From the NCBI RefSeq assembly GCF_003202755.1, contig NZ_QGLK01000005.1:1-64000 (forward strand): DNA of 64,000 bases. The letters run 5' to 3'. The DNA comes from Bifidobacterium asteroides. GTDB lineage: Bacteria; Actinomycetota; Actinomycetes; Actinomycetales; Bifidobacteriaceae. The notes beneath the pieces are model-generated. The model worked only from the letters and a program-made list of their open reading frames with translations. It was not told the origin of the DNA and did not search any database. Position numbers and translations under genes: made by a program. Below are positions 8,002 to 25,017 of this stretch, piece by piece (positions within the stretch are counted from its first letter, which is position 1; each line of letters starts with the position of its first letter).

Positions 8002-9184
8002 AGGTGCTCCCCTCTCCCGGCGCACTCCACACAGTGACCGAGCCATGGTGGGTCAGGGCCACATGCTTAACGATTGCCAGCCCTAGGCCGATGCCCACAG
8101 CAGTTTCCTCGTTCTGATTGTCGGCGCGGTAGAAGCGCTCAAAGATCCTGCCCTGGTCGGCCTTGGATATGCCTCGGCCGTGATCGACCACTCTGATTTT
8201 TGCGTAGTGCCCATCCTTGGAGGCCTGAGCCGCCAGGGAGACGGTAGAGCCTGAAGGCGAATAGGAGATAGCGTTCTCCACCAGCTTGGCCAGAGCCACT
8301 CTGATCTGTTGCCCGTCGCCATGAATCGTCAGCGGCTGGTCGCATCGCCATCGCAGGGTCACATGGGCCTGATCCGCTCCATTCTGCTCATCCTGCACCA
8401 CTGCCCTTATCTGCTCAGCCACGTCAAGCACGTTCTCCCTGCTGGGCTTGATCCGCTCCTGAGCCCGGATCAGCAAAAGAAGATCCTTGAGCACGTGCCC
8501 CAGATAGGCGCTGTAGCGCTGGACCGAAGAGGCATCCTTGGAAACGCTACGCAGGTGACTGCGAAGAAGCTCTGGGTCATCCCCTTCCAGATGGGAGGTG
8601 GTTTTGAGCTGTGCCGCCAGCTCCTCCAGGGCCTGGACCGGCTTGAGCATCTGCTCGGATACATTGGTCATGAAAGCGTCCCTGGTCCGAACAAACCTGA
8701 CCGAATCGCTCACATCATCGATAAGCACCACCACCAAGGACTGGTCGATGCGCCCTAGCGTGACCTTGAGCCAGTTCCTTCTGGAAACCGCCTGGGCCTG
8801 AACATGGGTCTCGTCCCCAGGATCCTCGGCCTCGTCAATATCCCAATTATCGGATTCAGTGCTCTCAGCTGTGACATCCAAAGCGAATTCGGTAGGCGTT
8901 CGCGTGATCAGATTAAAGCTGCGTCGACCGCCCGAACGCCGTACCTGCACGATGGCCTCGATGATCTTCGGATTGGAGATCTCGTCGTTGCTGACGATTC
9001 CCAGCCTGTAGGCATCCGGGCTGGAGCGAACAACCTCGCCATCGCCATCGACCACAACCGTGGCGGCGGGGATGAGTGCCAGCAAGGCCTGGGTCGAGCC
9101 CTCCAAAGCCTCGCCATCGGCCTGTTCACCATCCTTGCTCCGGTTGCCCATAAGGCTGCGTAGGCGGTTCATGAACCGTCTCAT
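7934..9184 (-). CDS. SenX3-like histidine-kinase homologue without the phospho-acceptor His
   Basis: A 416-residue protein with a PAS-like region (about 30-110), a dimerisation/H-box region (about 165-240) and an HATPase domain (about 280-400). The ATPase domain keeps its N-box (LVENAISYSP), DHGRGIS and GIGLGLAIVKH motifs, so ATP binding looks intact. In the H-box, where relatives read NVSHELKTP, this protein reads NVSEQMLKP. The phospho-acceptor His is Glu (codon GAG at 8654-8656). There are no membrane segments, unlike SenX3 or PhoR. The start at ATG 9184 has GGAGGGAAG upstream; the longer open frame runs into phoU. It is divergent from phoU and no response-regulator gene is adjacent. It may act as a scaffold or ATP sensor rather than a kinase. 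Confidence 0.85.
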   Translation of the reverse strand: MRRFMNRLRSLMGNRSKDGEQADGEALEGSTQALLALIPAATVVVDGDGEVVRSSPDAYRLGIVSNDEISNPKIIEAIVQVRRSGGRRSFNLITRTPTEFALDVTAESTESDNWDIDEAEDPGDETHVQAQAVSRRNWLKVTLGRIDQSLVVVLIDDVSDSVRFVRTRDAFMTNVSEQMLKPVQALEELAAQLKTTSHLEGDDPELLRSHLRSVSKDASSVQRYSAYLGHVLKDLLLLIRAQERIKPSRENVLDVAEQIRAVVQDEQNGADQAHVTLRWRCDQPLTIHGDGQQIRVALAKLVENAISYSPSGSTVSLAAQASKDGHYAKIRVVDHGRGISKADQGRIFERFYRADNQNEETAVGIGLGLAIVKHVALTHHGSVTVWSAPGEGSTFTLMLPLAQDPVAGQDGDNPSD

Positions 9185-18051: not shown

Positions 18052-19020
18052 TTAAAGCAGGCAGACACCCAGCCAGCAGAACCCTGTCAGCAGATCCGTA
18101 TAGCCCGAGAGCGCGAATGCCCTGCTGAAGCGATTCCGACAGCTGGCCACAGTAGTGGCAATGGCCAGCGCCACGACAGGCAACAGGCAGAGCAGGCGCG
18201 GCCAGACGTCCGCAAAGGAGCCGTCAGACAGGGACCATGACTCGACCGCACCCAGGGTCACAGCCAGGGCATAGCAGGACCCCATCAGAATCAGTGTGCC
18301 TTTGGCTCCGATGAATGAAGACAGCGTGTACTTGCCGGCCAGCGGGTCTGCATCAATGTCTCGATAGTTGTTGATCTCCAGAACTGGAATGCAGATAAGA
18401 CCGCCGACCAAGGCACCGATAAACCCGTGACGGTCGATACCGCCAGTCTCCAGGTACTGGGTGGCCAGCACGCCCACCAGGCCGAAGAAGATCATGATGC
18501 TCAGCTCACCCATGGCTCTATAGCCATAAGGATGTTTGCCTCCCGTGTAAAACCAGGCTCCCAGCAGACAGAAGATGCCGATTAGGATCATCCACCAGTG
18601 GCCAGTAACCCAGCAGAGGATCAGACCGGACAGGCAGGCCATAAATATATTGAGATAGGCGGAAAGCAGGACCTTGCGAGGCTCCACGCCACCGGCCACG
18701 CCTCTTCTGGGCAGATCAGGCACCGAACCGTCGGCACCGGCGCTGGAGAGGCTGCTCCGGCCCTCGTCGGTACCCCTGATTCCGTCAAAGTAGTCATTGG
18801 CAAGATTACAGGTGCTGTGAATGAACACAGCCGTCAGACAGCATAAAAGAGCGATTAGCCAGAAACGAACATCTGGCCCCAGCCCTTGGTTGAACAGCTG
18901 CCTGAGAGCCACCGCCGTGCCAATCAGAACCGGCGTGGGTGAGCAGAGCAATGCCGAGGGTCGCAACGCGTCCTTGTATTCCCGAAGTGTGATGAACATA
19001 ATTGCCTGATTATCCACCAA
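18052..19020 (-). CDS. UbiA/MenA-like prenyltransferase (copy B)
   Basis: An integral membrane aromatic prenyltransferase with about eight or nine predicted helices. Both Asp-rich Mg-diphosphate motifs are present: [11 protein letters not shown] (about 75) and NNYRDIDAD (about 215), so it should be active. It resembles 1,4-dihydroxy-2-naphthoate prenyltransferases (MenA), which attach a polyprenyl tail in menaquinone synthesis. An internal ATG at 18999 may be the true start. It lies directly downstream of a paralogue, and no other menaquinone gene is in the window, so substrate and product are unclear. Confidence 0.85.
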
Positions 19021-19065
19021 ATCGCTTGAAGGTCGGACTGCTCTCTTATGAGAGTATCAAGATTT

Positions 19066-20046
19066 TCATAGCTGCAGGAGCAGGCCCGCCGACCAACACA
19101 GGGCGGAGACCAGGGTGCCTTTACCCGCCATGCCAAAAGCCTTGGGCACCTGGCCACGAGCAAAGTCTCGACAGATCAGCAGAAAGACAACGGCCACTGG
19201 CAGGAGGATCAGCACAAGAGGGAAACCGGGCAGGCCATGTCGCATGACAGCAGGAACGAACTGAATCAGGCCCAGAATCAGGCTCAGGATGTAGACCAGG
19301 TAAATGGAGATCGCCGCTGCGCGCGCCCCCACAAGAACTGCATATGTGTGCTTGCCGGCAAGGCGGTCGTCGTCCAGGTCACGGTAATTGTTGAGCATGA
19401 GCAGGCCCACGGCATTGAGCCCGCATGCGCAGGCACCCAGGATGCCGGCGGCATCGACCCTATTAATAAGGAAGTACTCGGTACCCAGGGTGGCCACCAG
19501 ACCGAAGAAGATGAAGACGCTGACCTCGCCCAGCCCGTGGTAGCCATATGGGTGCGGGCCGCCCACGTAACACCAGCCAGCGATCAGGCAGCAGACCCCG
19601 ACCAGGATCATCCACCAGTGACCGGTCAGTGCCATGACGGCCAGACCCATCAAGCAGGTGAAGGCCGCCGAGATCATGGTGGCGTAAAGCACCTTCCTGG
19701 GCGGCACTCCGGCAGCCACAAGACGTCTGGGTCTGCCGGAGGTGGCCTCCTCGCCGCCACGGCCGGAATCAGTGCCGCGAACACCATCGGCATAGTCATT
19801 GGCGAAGTTGGCTGCGATCTGCATAGACAGGGCAAGCAGGACCAGCAAGACCACGATCAAGGCCAGTCGTCCCGGTGTGGCCGCTTTCAGGGCAGGGTCG
19901 ACAGGCGTGGGCGAGCAGGAACTGGTGCACTGTTCCAAGAGCCGTGACCGCTCCAAGAGTGCAGCCGAAGCGCCCACGCAGACAGGTGCCACCGAGGCAG
20001 GCAGCGTCCGGGGACGCATGCCATCCATCCACAGCCTGATATTCAT
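19066..20046 (-). CDS. UbiA/MenA-like prenyltransferase (copy A)
   Basis: A paralogue of the next gene with the same topology and motifs: NDYADGVRGTD (about 95) and NNYRDLDDD (about 230), plus a shared GHWWMILVG segment and a PHPYGYHGLGE loop. The pair looks like an old duplication because identity is concentrated in motifs. GGGGAGGGA precedes ATG 20046. It is 25 bp downstream of lysS on the same strand. MenA-like function is the best guess; prenylation of another aromatic or quinone acceptor is possible. Confidence 0.85.
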   Translation of the reverse strand: MNIRLWMDGMRPRTLPASVAPVCVGASAALLERSRLLEQCTSSCSPTPVDPALKAATPGRLALIVVLLVLLALSMQIAANFANDYADGVRGTDSGRGGEEATSGRPRRLVAAGVPPRKVLYATMISAAFTCLMGLAVMALTGHWWMILVGVCCLIAGWCYVGGPHPYGYHGLGEVSVFIFFGLVATLGTEYFLINRVDAAGILGACACGLNAVGLLMLNNYRDLDDDRLAGKHTYAVLVGARAAAISIYLVYILSLILGLIQFVPAVMRHGLPGFPLVLILLPVAVVFLLICRDFARGQVPKAFGMAGKGTLVSALCWSAGLLLQL

Positions 20047-22329: not shown

Positions 22330-24369
22330 ATGAGCCAGGACCAGATACCGATCACAGGCAGCAAGCAGAAAGAGCCTCAACAGTCCTACATGCAACCGGA
22401 CGGCAGCTTCGACACCCAAGCTTTCCTGGACGGACTGGATGCCATCTTCAACGCCGGCAAGGCCCGCGATCAGGCCGAACCATACTTGCAGCAGGCGCTG
22501 GTGGATGCGGAGAATGCAGGAGACGATGCCGGACTGCTGGCCGTGCTCAACGAAACCATGGGCTTCTACCGGTCCCAGGGTCGCCACCAAGAAAATATGT
22601 GGATGATTCAGCGGGCCATAGAGCTGGCCTCACGAATGCGCATCGAAGGGTCCGAGGCCTGGACGACCACCCTGATCAATGCGGCCACAGGTCTGCGGGC
22701 AGCCAAAAAGTACGACCAGGCTGAGGACCTCTACCGTCAGGCGCTTGCTTCTGCAGCCAAGACCCTTGGGCCCAAGGACCGGCGGCTGGCGGCCCTGCAC
22801 AACAACCTGTCCATGCTCTACAGCGAAACCGACCGGCCCGACCAGGCCGAGCAGGAGCTGCGCCAGGCCATGGACATACTGGAAAATTCCAGCACCGATC
22901 CTTCCCGGGATCTGGACCTGGCCTCCACCCACACCAATCTGGCCCTCCTGCTCATGCAGCGCAACGACAATCCGCAGGCTCTGCAAGAAGCTTGGGACCA
23001 GGCTCGCACAGCCTTGGACATCTATCGAACCGGCCATCTGGAGAACAGTGCACACTATGCCTCGGCCCTTGCAGGCTTTGCCCAGGTCTGCTATATGACC
23101 GGCCGCTTCAGGCAGTCGGCAGACACCTACCGCAAGGCCCTAGCCATCATTGAGGACCGGTACGGCAAAGGCAGCGACTACTACCAGATCACCAAGGCCA
23201 ATCTGGACCAGGCCCAAGCCGCTGCTGAGAAAAACGCGGACGAGGACCAACCCGATCAGACTGACGAAATAGCACCCAACCAGCCGAAGATCAGCTCAAT
23301 CCAAACCTCAACCAGGAATCAGAACGATGACAACGATCAACATGACTCCCGCTCGGATATTCAAGGGCTGAGCCTGGCCAGGGCTTATTGGGAACAGGTG
23401 GGCCGCCCCATGCTGGAGGACCGTTATCCCCAGTATCGCAACCGGATCGCCGTGGGCCTGATGGGCCATGGATCGGACTGCTACGGCTTTGACGATGTCA
23501 TCTCCCGGGATCACGATTTCGGCCCCGGCTTCTGCCTGTGGTTGACCAGCGAGGATTACCAGACCATCGGCGACCAGCTGCAGAAGGACTATGAGGCCTT
23601 ACCTACTGAGTTCATGGGATTCGGTTCGCGGACCGACAGCGTCAGGGCAAAGGGAGCCAACCGCCGCGTGGGCGTCTTCGAGATCGGCGCCTTCTTCGAA
23701 TCTCTGACCGGCTACCGGCAGGCGCCCCCGGAAGATCACCCCCACGAGTGGCTGCTCCTTGACGAGGCCACGCTGGCGGCAGCCACTAATGGCAAGATTT
23801 TCGCGGATCCTCTGGGACAGATGCTGGCCACCCGGCAGGGGTTCAAGGCCATGCCCGACGATGTGCGCCTCTGTCTGATCTCCCGCCGGCTGGGCATGAT
23901 CGCCCAGGCGGGCCAGTACAACCTGCCGCGGAGTCTGCATCGGGGCGATGGGGCCGCAGCTATGCTGTCGATTAACGAATTCGTCAAAGCCTGCGCCTCA
24001 CTGATCTTCCTGATCAACAATCCACTGACAGTCGGTTATTTGCCCTATTACAAGTGGACATTCGCGGCCCTTCGCCGACTGAGCGGACGAATGGCTACCA
24101 GGCTGGCTGACCTGACCGAGCAGCTGGAGGACATCCTGCGCCTGGCTTCGGCTGCCTGCTACGGGGGGCAAGGCTTTGGCGAAGGCGGCAAGGGAGCTCG
24201 GCCAGCTGTCGAACGCATTACCAAGCTTGTGGAATCCATCTGCGCAAGAATCGTAGAAGAGCTGCAAGCGGAAGGCTTGACCAACAGCCCGGAAACCTTC
24301 CTGGAATGGCAGCGCCCCTATGTCGAGGCCCACATTTCCAGCGACGATCCGGTTCTGCACAGCATCTGA
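22330..24369 (+). CDS. TPR protein fused to a DUF4037 nucleotidyltransferase-like domain
   Basis: A 679-residue cytoplasmic protein. Residues about 30-300 are helical tetratricopeptide-type repeats (recurring A..Y..A...P and DYYQITKANL segments), followed by a polar linker to about 345. The C-terminal domain (about 350-679) fits DUF4037. It contains GHGSDCYGFDDVISRDHDFG near residue 380, which matches the nucleotidyltransferase pattern hG[GS]...[DE]h[DE] with DHD as the probable metal-binding pair. Substrate and product are unknown. A DUF4125 gene follows 12 bases later with its own GGAG, so the two form one unit. NTase activity is inferred from the motif only. Confidence 0.85.
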   Translation: MSQDQIPITGSKQKEPQQSYMQPDGSFDTQAFLDGLDAIFNAGKARDQAEPYLQQALVDAENAGDDAGLLAVLNETMGFYRSQGRHQENMWMIQRAIELASRMRIEGSEAWTTTLINAATGLRAAKKYDQAEDLYRQALASAAKTLGPKDRRLAALHNNLSMLYSETDRPDQAEQELRQAMDILENSSTDPSRDLDLASTHTNLALLLMQRNDNPQALQEAWDQARTALDIYRTGHLENSAHYASALAGFAQVCYMTGRFRQSADTYRKALAIIEDRYGKGSDYYQITKANLDQAQAAAEKNADEDQPDQTDEIAPNQPKISSIQTSTRNQNDDNDQHDSRSDIQGLSLARAYWEQVGRPMLEDRYPQYRNRIAVGLMGHGSDCYGFDDVISRDHDFGPGFCLWLTSEDYQTIGDQLQKDYEALPTEFMGFGSRTDSVRAKGANRRVGVFEIGAFFESLTGYRQAPPEDHPHEWLLLDEATLAAATNGKIFADPLGQMLATRQGFKAMPDDVRLCLISRRLGMIAQAGQYNLPRSLHRGDGAAAMLSINEFVKACASLIFLINNPLTVGYLPYYKWTFAALRRLSGRMATRLADLTEQLEDILRLASAACYGGQGFGEGGKGARPAVERITKLVESICARIVEELQAEGLTNSPETFLEWQRPYVEAHISSDDPVLHSI

Positions 24370-24381
24370 AAGGAGCCAAGG

Positions 24382-25017
24382 ATGGCTAACGACGAGCAAT
24401 GTCAGGATGAGGAATCCCTGCGCGAGCGGATCGTCCGCCACGAATGGGAGCAGTTCCAGCAGGTCAACAACGAGGGTGGTCCGGCCAACTGTCAGGGCAA
24501 CTGGCCCATGTTCCACCAGATGCGCCTGAGCCAGTTTCTGACCTGGCCACACCCCCTGCTGACCAGCTATGCGGACGACCTGGATCAGGCCGACAAGGTG
24601 GGACGCAACCTGCTGACCGAGAAGTACGGGCGGATGATGGAGTCCACAGCCCCGGACCAGTACCACAGCAGCATCGCCCCCTACCTGCCCAGGCTGGGTC
24701 TGGATCGCCAGGAGCGCCAGGAGCGCATCATCGACAGACAGGTGGCCTGGGCCAAGGACTTCCGCGAGCGCTACCCCCGTCTAGGTCAGGAGATGCGAGT
24801 CCTGCGCACCAGTGAAGACACTCCGGAGGCCACCTCCTTCGAAACCTATCTGCGTGGCGAACTGGGCACCTATTCGGCCAGGACGCTGGATCTCTACCAA
24901 TCCATGGTGGACCAGATCGAGGCCCGGGGCGGCAACCTGACCGAGGAAACCATCCTGGCCACGGTGCAGATGAACGGCTTTGAAACCCTCGACGAAGCCG
25001 AACAGGCCCAGAACTGA
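24382..25017 (+). CDS. DUF4125 family protein
   Basis: A 211-residue, mainly helical cytoplasmic protein matching the DUF4125 family in its NCQGNWPMFHQMRLSQF and EKYGRMMESTAPDQY segments. Function is unknown. AAAGGAGCC precedes ATG 24382. It directly follows the TPR-DUF4037 gene. The spacing and the usual pairing of these two families suggest the proteins act together, perhaps as an enzyme and its partner or target. Confidence 0.83.
   Translation: MANDEQCQDEESLRERIVRHEWEQFQQVNNEGGPANCQGNWPMFHQMRLSQFLTWPHPLLTSYADDLDQADKVGRNLLTEKYGRMMESTAPDQYHSSIAPYLPRLGLDRQERQERIIDRQVAWAKDFRERYPRLGQEMRVLRTSEDTPEATSFETYLRGELGTYSARTLDLYQSMVDQIEARGGNLTEETILATVQMNGFETLDEAEQAQN

Follow-up and report, generated by a model that had tools for sequence, protein, structure and literature searches.

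What is the function of two adjacent genes of Bifidobacterium asteroides, the first encoding a tetratricopeptide repeat (TPR) scaffold joined to a nucleotidyltransferase (NTase) motif and a DUF4037 domain, and the second encoding a protein of family DUF4125? The pair lies in the stretch of 64,000 nucleotides that we analysed (the window; contig NZ_QGLK01000005.1, positions 1 to 64,000), from a strain with a genome of 2.17 Mb. We find that genes for DUF4125, a TPR protein and a DUF4037 NTase recur together as a set, which gene fusion has brought down to two members in Bifidobacterium, and that in another actinobacterial class this set stands repeatedly inside or beside operons for chemically unrelated glycyl radical enzymes (GREs) and their radical S-adenosylmethionine (radical-SAM) activases. 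Our leading interpretation, to which we assign a probability of about 0.4, is that the gene pair is an accessory or regulatory module of GREs. These enzymes, whose radical state is fragile, yield trimethylamine, p-cresol and skatole, which are medically interesting products of the gut, and, in bifidobacteria, formate.

A recurrent gene set beside glycyl radical enzymes

We compared a genus draw of 27 genomes, a phylum draw of 296 and a class draw of 197 (around G297), the last two sharing four genomes; from its gene content, the class appears to be Coriobacteriia. The class draw contained DUF4125 in 16 genomes (21 genes) and DUF4037 in 17, with both families in 15 (hypergeometric P = 2e-19, kinship not corrected). 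Of the 21 DUF4125 genes, 16 have a TPR gene no more than about 1.1 kb away, and 13 are adjoined by an NTase gene with a gap of at most 75 bases. The TPR and NTase parts are separate neighbouring genes in this class and are fused in Bifidobacterium and Fusobacterium; because the fusion in the window corresponds to separate neighbours elsewhere, we argue that the two parts act together. The pair is no chance neighbourhood.

Inspected by eye, the surroundings of these genes repeatedly contained GRE operons, which we then counted, taking as a GRE any listed PF02901 match and as proximity a distance within 10 kb; the P values assume independent loci or genera. By this measure a GRE is close to 16 of the 21 class-draw DUF4125 genes, where 0.69 would be expected by chance (P = 8e-21); counted by genus, 8 of 9 are GRE-linked, against 0.67 expected (P = 8e-10). 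Of the 16 linked genes, seven stand beside a GRE of CutC type (choline trimethylamine-lyase), seven, in five genomes, beside 4-hydroxyphenylacetate decarboxylase (HPAD), one beside indoleacetate decarboxylase (IAD) and one beside a split GRE, and an activase gene is present in each of the 16 stretches. Curated NCBIfam models placed HPAD over the cut-off in all five genomes, IAD in L150 (1765.7 bits, cut-off 1100) and CutC in L159 (1617.8 bits, cut-off 1050), the sole cut locus tested; the other six CutC-type calls are the best phmmer match among four GRE queries, pyruvate formate-lyase (PFL) not being among the four. In a seventeenth locus (L154, in G336) a GRE C-terminus lies at the contig end.

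Two loci illustrate the arrangement. The order in L159 is CutC, activase, EutN, PduL and bacterial microcompartment shell genes, aldehyde dehydrogenase, TPR, NTase, DUF4125 and MerR; in L157 it is the HPAD large subunit, the small subunit, a major facilitator superfamily (MFS) transporter, DUF4125 and TPR. In a tree of 45 DUF4125 proteins, whose deepest forks are weak (78/71), the GRE-linked members fall into four separate groups: a cut clade (100/100), an HPAD/IAD clade (97/92), a second HPAD clade (100/100), and a group (89/80) that joins the split-GRE and contig-edge-GRE pair with the unlinked L148 and L149. The Bifidobacterium and Sanguibacter proteins form one clade (100/99).

At the level of whole genomes, PF02901 was found in 12 of 12 DUF4125 genomes of the phylum draw versus 47 of 296 overall (P = 7e-11), in 8 of 8 DUF4125 genera versus 30 of 199 (P = 1e-7), and in 16 of 16 DUF4125 genomes of the class draw versus 85 of 197. 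All 26 pair-bearing genomes of the genus draw have a GRE, as does the pair-less G006. The window's own genome has its only PFL-like GRE found at C1:886551 and its only class III ribonucleotide reductase (NrdD) at C1:315395.

Within the genus, 26 of 27 genomes encode both families, always on a shared contig, and G006 alone lacks both. The pair is a conserved system and, as the initial annotation had proposed, an uncharacterised one. The 80 loci fetched from named genomes are the best 80 of 442 relatives (by record title, 79 from Bifidobacteriaceae and one from Sanguibacter); a full-length fusion stands upstream of DUF4125 in 78 of them, and L066 and L076 end at a contig edge. The DUF4125 protein of the window is 99% identical to its counterpart in B. 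asteroides VRA_9sq_n, and the spacers of L055, L060 and L062 are nearly identical to that of the window. In G012 the DUF4037 and DUF4125 matches lie about 3.6 kb apart; in its apparent counterpart, L067 of Bombiscardovia, the gap holds, by eye, ORFs (open reading frames) resembling ATP-binding cassette transporters.

The phylum draw contained DUF4125 in 12 and DUF4037 in 13 of its 296 genomes. The initial annotation had allowed for families that co-occur in this genus only; we found co-occurrence in other actinobacterial families, in Fusobacterium and, as published, in Syntrophobacteraceae. Neither the GRE neighbourhood in another class nor the separation of the TPR and NTase genes there had been part of that annotation. 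In Fusobacterium vincentii (L135, NZ_CP084075.1), an Abi_2 gene at 8073-8984 separates the gene for a TPR-DUF4037 fusion from that for DUF4125. This record is filed as a plasmid, yet with 2.1 Mb it is chromosome-like, and it is the sole DUF4125 match in the plasmid collection. At the limits used, DUF4125 had no relative in the phage collection and none that was confirmed in viral contigs. DUF4037 occurs in the absence of DUF4125 on 11 plasmid records and on one record filed as a phage.

Several loci depart from these arrangements. DUF4125 in L137, L138, L140 and L142 (family f23) lies near an ATC_hydrolase-like gene (PF14196, 31.3 bits in L138; the others by eye), and in three of the four also near a gene for a small membrane protein that resembles GlsB/YeaQ by eye; no TPR or NTase gene was found beside DUF4125 in these four loci. 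In L166 and L167 (G243 and G307), a TPR gene near an HPAD operon has a DUF4125 gene on either side, the two being divergent paralogues, and the stretch showed no NTase gene. L168 (MT835476.1), titled 'Bacteriophage sp.' (unverified), has bacterial-looking gene content, with TPR and DUF4037 and no DUF4125 in the 30 kb read.

The split GRE gene (L151:8894-11533, on G389:C3) is naturally split: a 772-aa ORF stops (TAG, then TGA) partway through the Gly_radical domain, the remainder of which is encoded by a distinct 98-aa ORF, recalling spare parts of the GrcA type. Its stretch contains DUF4125 and TPR genes, and the NTase gene lies about 19 kb from DUF4125. In the cut microcompartment loci (L143, L155 and L158-L162), the DUF4125 ORFs are N-terminally extended, with uncertain start codons, and the extensions mostly carry a [LF][FL]S-x-[PS]-x-V pattern that by eye resembles a possible encapsulation peptide.

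Parts of the two proteins

The features of the pair are collected in Table 1. The two-gene layout that the initial annotation had described, with 12 bp between the genes, agrees exactly with both ORFs.

Table 1. Features of the gene pair in the window
Feature	Position	Strand	Description and basis
TPR-NTase-DUF4037 fusion gene	22330..24369	+	679 aa, ATG start; ORF list and Pfam
TPR superhelix, residues 29-301	22414..23232	+	Pfam TPR_12; model helices; Foldseek match to kinesin light chain TPR
NTase motif G-x2-G-x-G-S-x11-D-H-D, residues 376-396	23455..23517	+	Alignment of 36 rows
Pfam DUF4037 (PF13228), helical domain behind NTase core	23749..24060	+	Pfam and alignment
Spacer of 12 bp with AAGGAG, ribosome-binding-like	24370..24381	+	Direct sequence reading
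DUF4125 gene (PF13526), all-helical product	24382..25017	+	211 aa, ATG start; Pfam

Pfam matched the fusion protein with TPR_12 at 75.3 bits and DUF4037 at 97.1 bits (cut-off 22.1), and the DUF4125 protein over nearly its whole length at 264.8 bits (cut-off 25). The polymerase-beta NTase superfamily is marked by the pattern hG[GS]-x9-13-Dh[DE]h, and the fusion carries it as GS-x11-D-H-D at residues 381-396. In an alignment of 36 rows, free-standing versions included, G376, G379, G381, S382, D388, D389, D394 and H395 are the same in all rows and D396 in 35. The NTase signature and the conservation of its DHD residues, which the initial annotation had respectively claimed and marked for checking, are thus both real. 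Its placement of that signature within the DUF4037 domain needs correction, as the motif lies upstream of the Pfam DUF4037 model, which spans residues 474-577 only. Within the DUF4037 part, Q529-Y530-N531, R534, R538 and K575-W576 are invariant in the same alignment. E451, the sole position examined as a candidate third carboxylate, is E in 11 rows and D in 2.

The model of the fusion protein has a mean predicted local distance difference test (pLDDT) score of 89.8 and a predicted template modelling (TM) score of 0.55. It consists of a TPR solenoid, a low-confidence linker, a mixed helix and strand core around the NTase motif (strands 374-378, 402-405, 448-451 and 488-492) and a helical C-terminus. 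Residues 310-339, with pLDDT under 50, are likely a flexible linker. The best Foldseek matches are kinesin light chain TPRs (E = 2.3e-07), several of them solved with bound peptides.

The second protein is modelled as all-helical (pLDDT 94.6, predicted TM score 0.90), in agreement with the helical DUF4125 protein of the initial annotation. Searched with Foldseek at a threshold of E <= 0.001, this model matched nothing in the PDB (E 2.2 at best, TM no higher than 0.22; a miss is possible) or in the BFVD viral library (E 3.9 at best, TM no higher than 0.26), and its fold may be new. PDB sequence searches with both proteins gave no meaningful relative and no similar solved NTase. E21, E160, Y164, S165 and N185 are invariant among 44 aligned DUF4125 rows, which hints at a binding or active site.

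The pair is preceded, on the minus strand, by a gene for a class II tRNA synthetase (PF00152; lysS-like by eye). Elsewhere in the window, two adjacent ORFs in tandem at 18052-20046 on the minus strand resemble, by eye, MenA/UbiA-type prenyltransferases.

Proposed function and rival explanations

The GREs beside DUF4125 act on different substrates (choline, 4-hydroxyphenylacetate and indoleacetate), and we therefore infer that the shared target is the GRE and activase machinery rather than the substrate. Because DUF4125 is present where the NTase is absent, DUF4125 would be the part that touches this machinery: it is the constant part and the likeliest point of contact with the GRE or its activase. 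The TPR part would dock or recruit a protein, and the NTase would nucleotidylate a protein partner (the GRE, the activase or DUF4125), thereby setting the activation state. The versions lacking an adjacent NTase suggest that nucleotide transfer is optional, and the nucleotidylation step as such is tentative and on balance somewhat doubtful. In the window's genome, the PFL-like GRE or NrdD would be the predicted client.

That the module serves GREs in the other class we consider probable; that it does so in Bifidobacterium is an extrapolation, and correspondingly less so. The most specific form of the proposal, rather unlikely as a whole, is that DUF4125 is a GRE chaperone with a new fold and TPR-DUF4037 a protein nucleotidyltransferase, which would jointly switch GREs on, off or into a protected state, with the trimethylamine-, p-cresol- and skatole-producing enzymes as clients in some actinobacteria and PFL (or NrdD) in bifidobacteria. 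If true, this would be the first control of GREs by nucleotide transfer. Recurring beside unlike GREs, a module that combines a conserved NTase with a protein lacking any fold match offers a direct handle on control of the GRE radical, and the GRE link turns two domains of unknown function that are almost absent from the open-licence literature into testable candidates.

Several observations weigh against a GRE accessory or regulatory role. No GRE or activase was found in the flanks of the 80 loci from the window's lineage (at most 8 kb per side, some shortened by contig ends), and the listed coordinates put no PF02901 gene within 10 kb of DUF4125 in any of the 26 genus genomes. G006 lacks both genes of the pair and encodes two PFL-like GREs as well as NrdD; PFL therefore does not need the pair, and the GREs beside the 16 linked genes included none that was recognised as a PFL. 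In the phylum draw, seven of the 12 genomes with DUF4125 (families f23 and f37) gave no match to DUF4037, and the GREs listed for them lie on contigs other than that of DUF4125 (0 of 7 near; these are draft genomes, and not every GRE candidate was scored). DUF4125 stands within 10 kb of just 5 of the 11 HPAD loci that scored over the cut-off (at most four candidates scored per genome) and near 7 of the 8 top-scoring GREs, G413 being the case in which it is missing. Four of the 21 class-draw loci show no GRE in the fetched stretch (L148, L149, L153 and L164; these are the loci on C22 and C9 of G472, on C7 of G480 and at 83k of G457), and that of L164 ends at a contig edge right after a piece that by eye is MFS-like. 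DUF4037 by itself is not GRE-linked, with a GRE in 6 of 13 DUF4037 genomes. As the NTase adjoins DUF4125 in only 13 of 21 cases, nucleotide transfer is not the core of every version; and the 50 fold matches listed for the fusion are almost all TPR proteins, so that the NTase assignment rests on the motif and the NTase fold is putative.

Some related candidates were tried and rejected. DUF4037 alone fails as a GRE marker on the count just given, and DUF4125 is the better one. NrdD does not discriminate as a client in Bifidobacterium, being present in 27 of 27 genomes, and PFL was discarded as an obligate client on account of G006.

Among the alternatives, the one that survives best is that the pair is a general sensory or regulatory module of anaerobic catabolic operons, responding to substrate, redox or oxygen state, with the GRE untouched and the NTase modifying a regulator or a small molecule. 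The loci do contain suitable company: MerR in L159, LuxR/PocR-type and histidine kinase-response regulator genes in L150, MFS transporters, and aldehyde and alcohol dehydrogenases, and the trio in L153 stands beside genes that by eye resemble aldolase and alcohol dehydrogenase, with no GRE. These other neighbours vary by locus, however (by eye, MerR in the cut loci and MFS in the decarboxylase loci), whereas GRE and activase are common to the 16 linked loci, and a Pfam scan found no DNA-binding domain in either protein. We regard this explanation as unlikely.

It could also be that DUF4125 and DUF4037 are tied to an anaerobic lifestyle and share catabolic islands with GREs as mere passengers, with no functional contact. 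In favour of such hitch-hiking are the confounding of the genome-level P values by kinship and the lack of GRE proximity in Bifidobacterium and in the f23 and f37 genomes. Passengers would not so readily account for proximity to four unlike GRE types across four groups of the DUF4125 tree, or for the recurrent orders of aldehyde dehydrogenase-TPR-NTase-DUF4125-MerR and GRE-small subunit-MFS-DUF4125-TPR, and we think this improbable.

A third possibility is a small-molecule nucleotidyltransferase of the aminoglycoside kind with an accessory helical protein, for which there is the placement of DUF4037 with the C-terminal domain of aminoglycoside nucleotidyltransferases in the excerpts of PMC3710099 used here. 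The frequent partnership or fusion with TPR points instead to a protein as the target, sequence searches of the PDB gave no meaningful relative, and NCBIfam gave no match to a resistance enzyme, so that this has little chance of being right.

Finally, the analogy with MNT/HEPN pairs and other toxin-antitoxin modules drawn by the initial annotation, to which one might add anti-phage defence, has an NTase with a helical neighbour, the Abi_2 gene between the two genes in Fusobacterium and the plasmid and phage records of DUF4037 alone in its favour, but we rejected it as extremely improbable on distribution, mobility and fold: the pair is kept in 26 of 27 genus genomes, DUF4125 has, at the limits used, no phage and no confirmed viral-contig relatives, a chromosome-like sole match in the plasmid collection and no HEPN-like fold match in the PDB, and PADLOC gave no match for DUF4125 and, for the fusion, nothing beyond a generic TPR model and a GajB match that is weak (E = 0.011), with no defence-system assignment.

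Comparison with known systems

The open-licence literature, so far as the parts used here extend, rarely names DUF4125 and gives no function for it. We found in it no paper combining 'glycyl radical enzyme' with 'tetratricopeptide', though one in print elsewhere is possible, and none combining pyruvate formate-lyase with nucleotidyltransferase and AMPylation. Three papers deal with the gene neighbourhoods of IAD, HPAD and cut, and none of DUF4125, DUF4037 and TPR is named in the excerpts used (PMC6181972, PMC13285125, PMC7807696).

MNT/HEPN pairs resemble the window pair in that an NTase stands beside a small helical protein. The window pair differs in having no HEPN fold match for that protein, a core chromosomal distribution and an additional TPR part. 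In the excerpts of PMC3710099, it is the DUF4037 region, not DUF4125, that is listed as HEPN-like: DUF4037 is described as a C-terminal, HEPN-like domain of aminoglycoside NTases, 'occasionally fused to TPRs', with 'No' in what appears to be the column for the conserved catalytic motif.

Polymerase-beta NTases with a KNTase-C or HEPN-like domain, the aminoglycoside type, share with the fusion the GS-x11-DHD motif followed by a helical domain. GlnE and GlnD are members of this wider group that act as protein modifiers. The fusion departs from these enzymes in that it has no meaningful similarity to a solved NTase, E451 is not conserved, and a TPR partner is present.

The nearest published arrangement is the Lrc operon for limonene in Syntrophobacteraceae LiM6, where, in the sections of PMC12583861 drawn on here, bssE, which encodes a GRE-activation chaperone, is followed directly by lrcL (DUF4125) and then lrcM (DUF4037), all reported to be expressed. 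The same two Pfam families are thus side by side, with no TPR mentioned in those sections, and the authors list LrcL and LrcM among proteins with domains of unknown function (PMC12583861).

The gene set resembles GRE accessory factors (activases, BssE, small subunits of the HpdC type and GrcA/YfiD) in being encoded in or beside GRE operons. The window pair differs from them in that the Pfam scan of both proteins found no radical-SAM, AAA+ or Fe-S domain, and in that it brings a TPR-NTase together with a protein that has no fold match. We know of no GRE factor or NTase system of this composition. The proposed function of the module is drawn wholly from gene neighbourhood.

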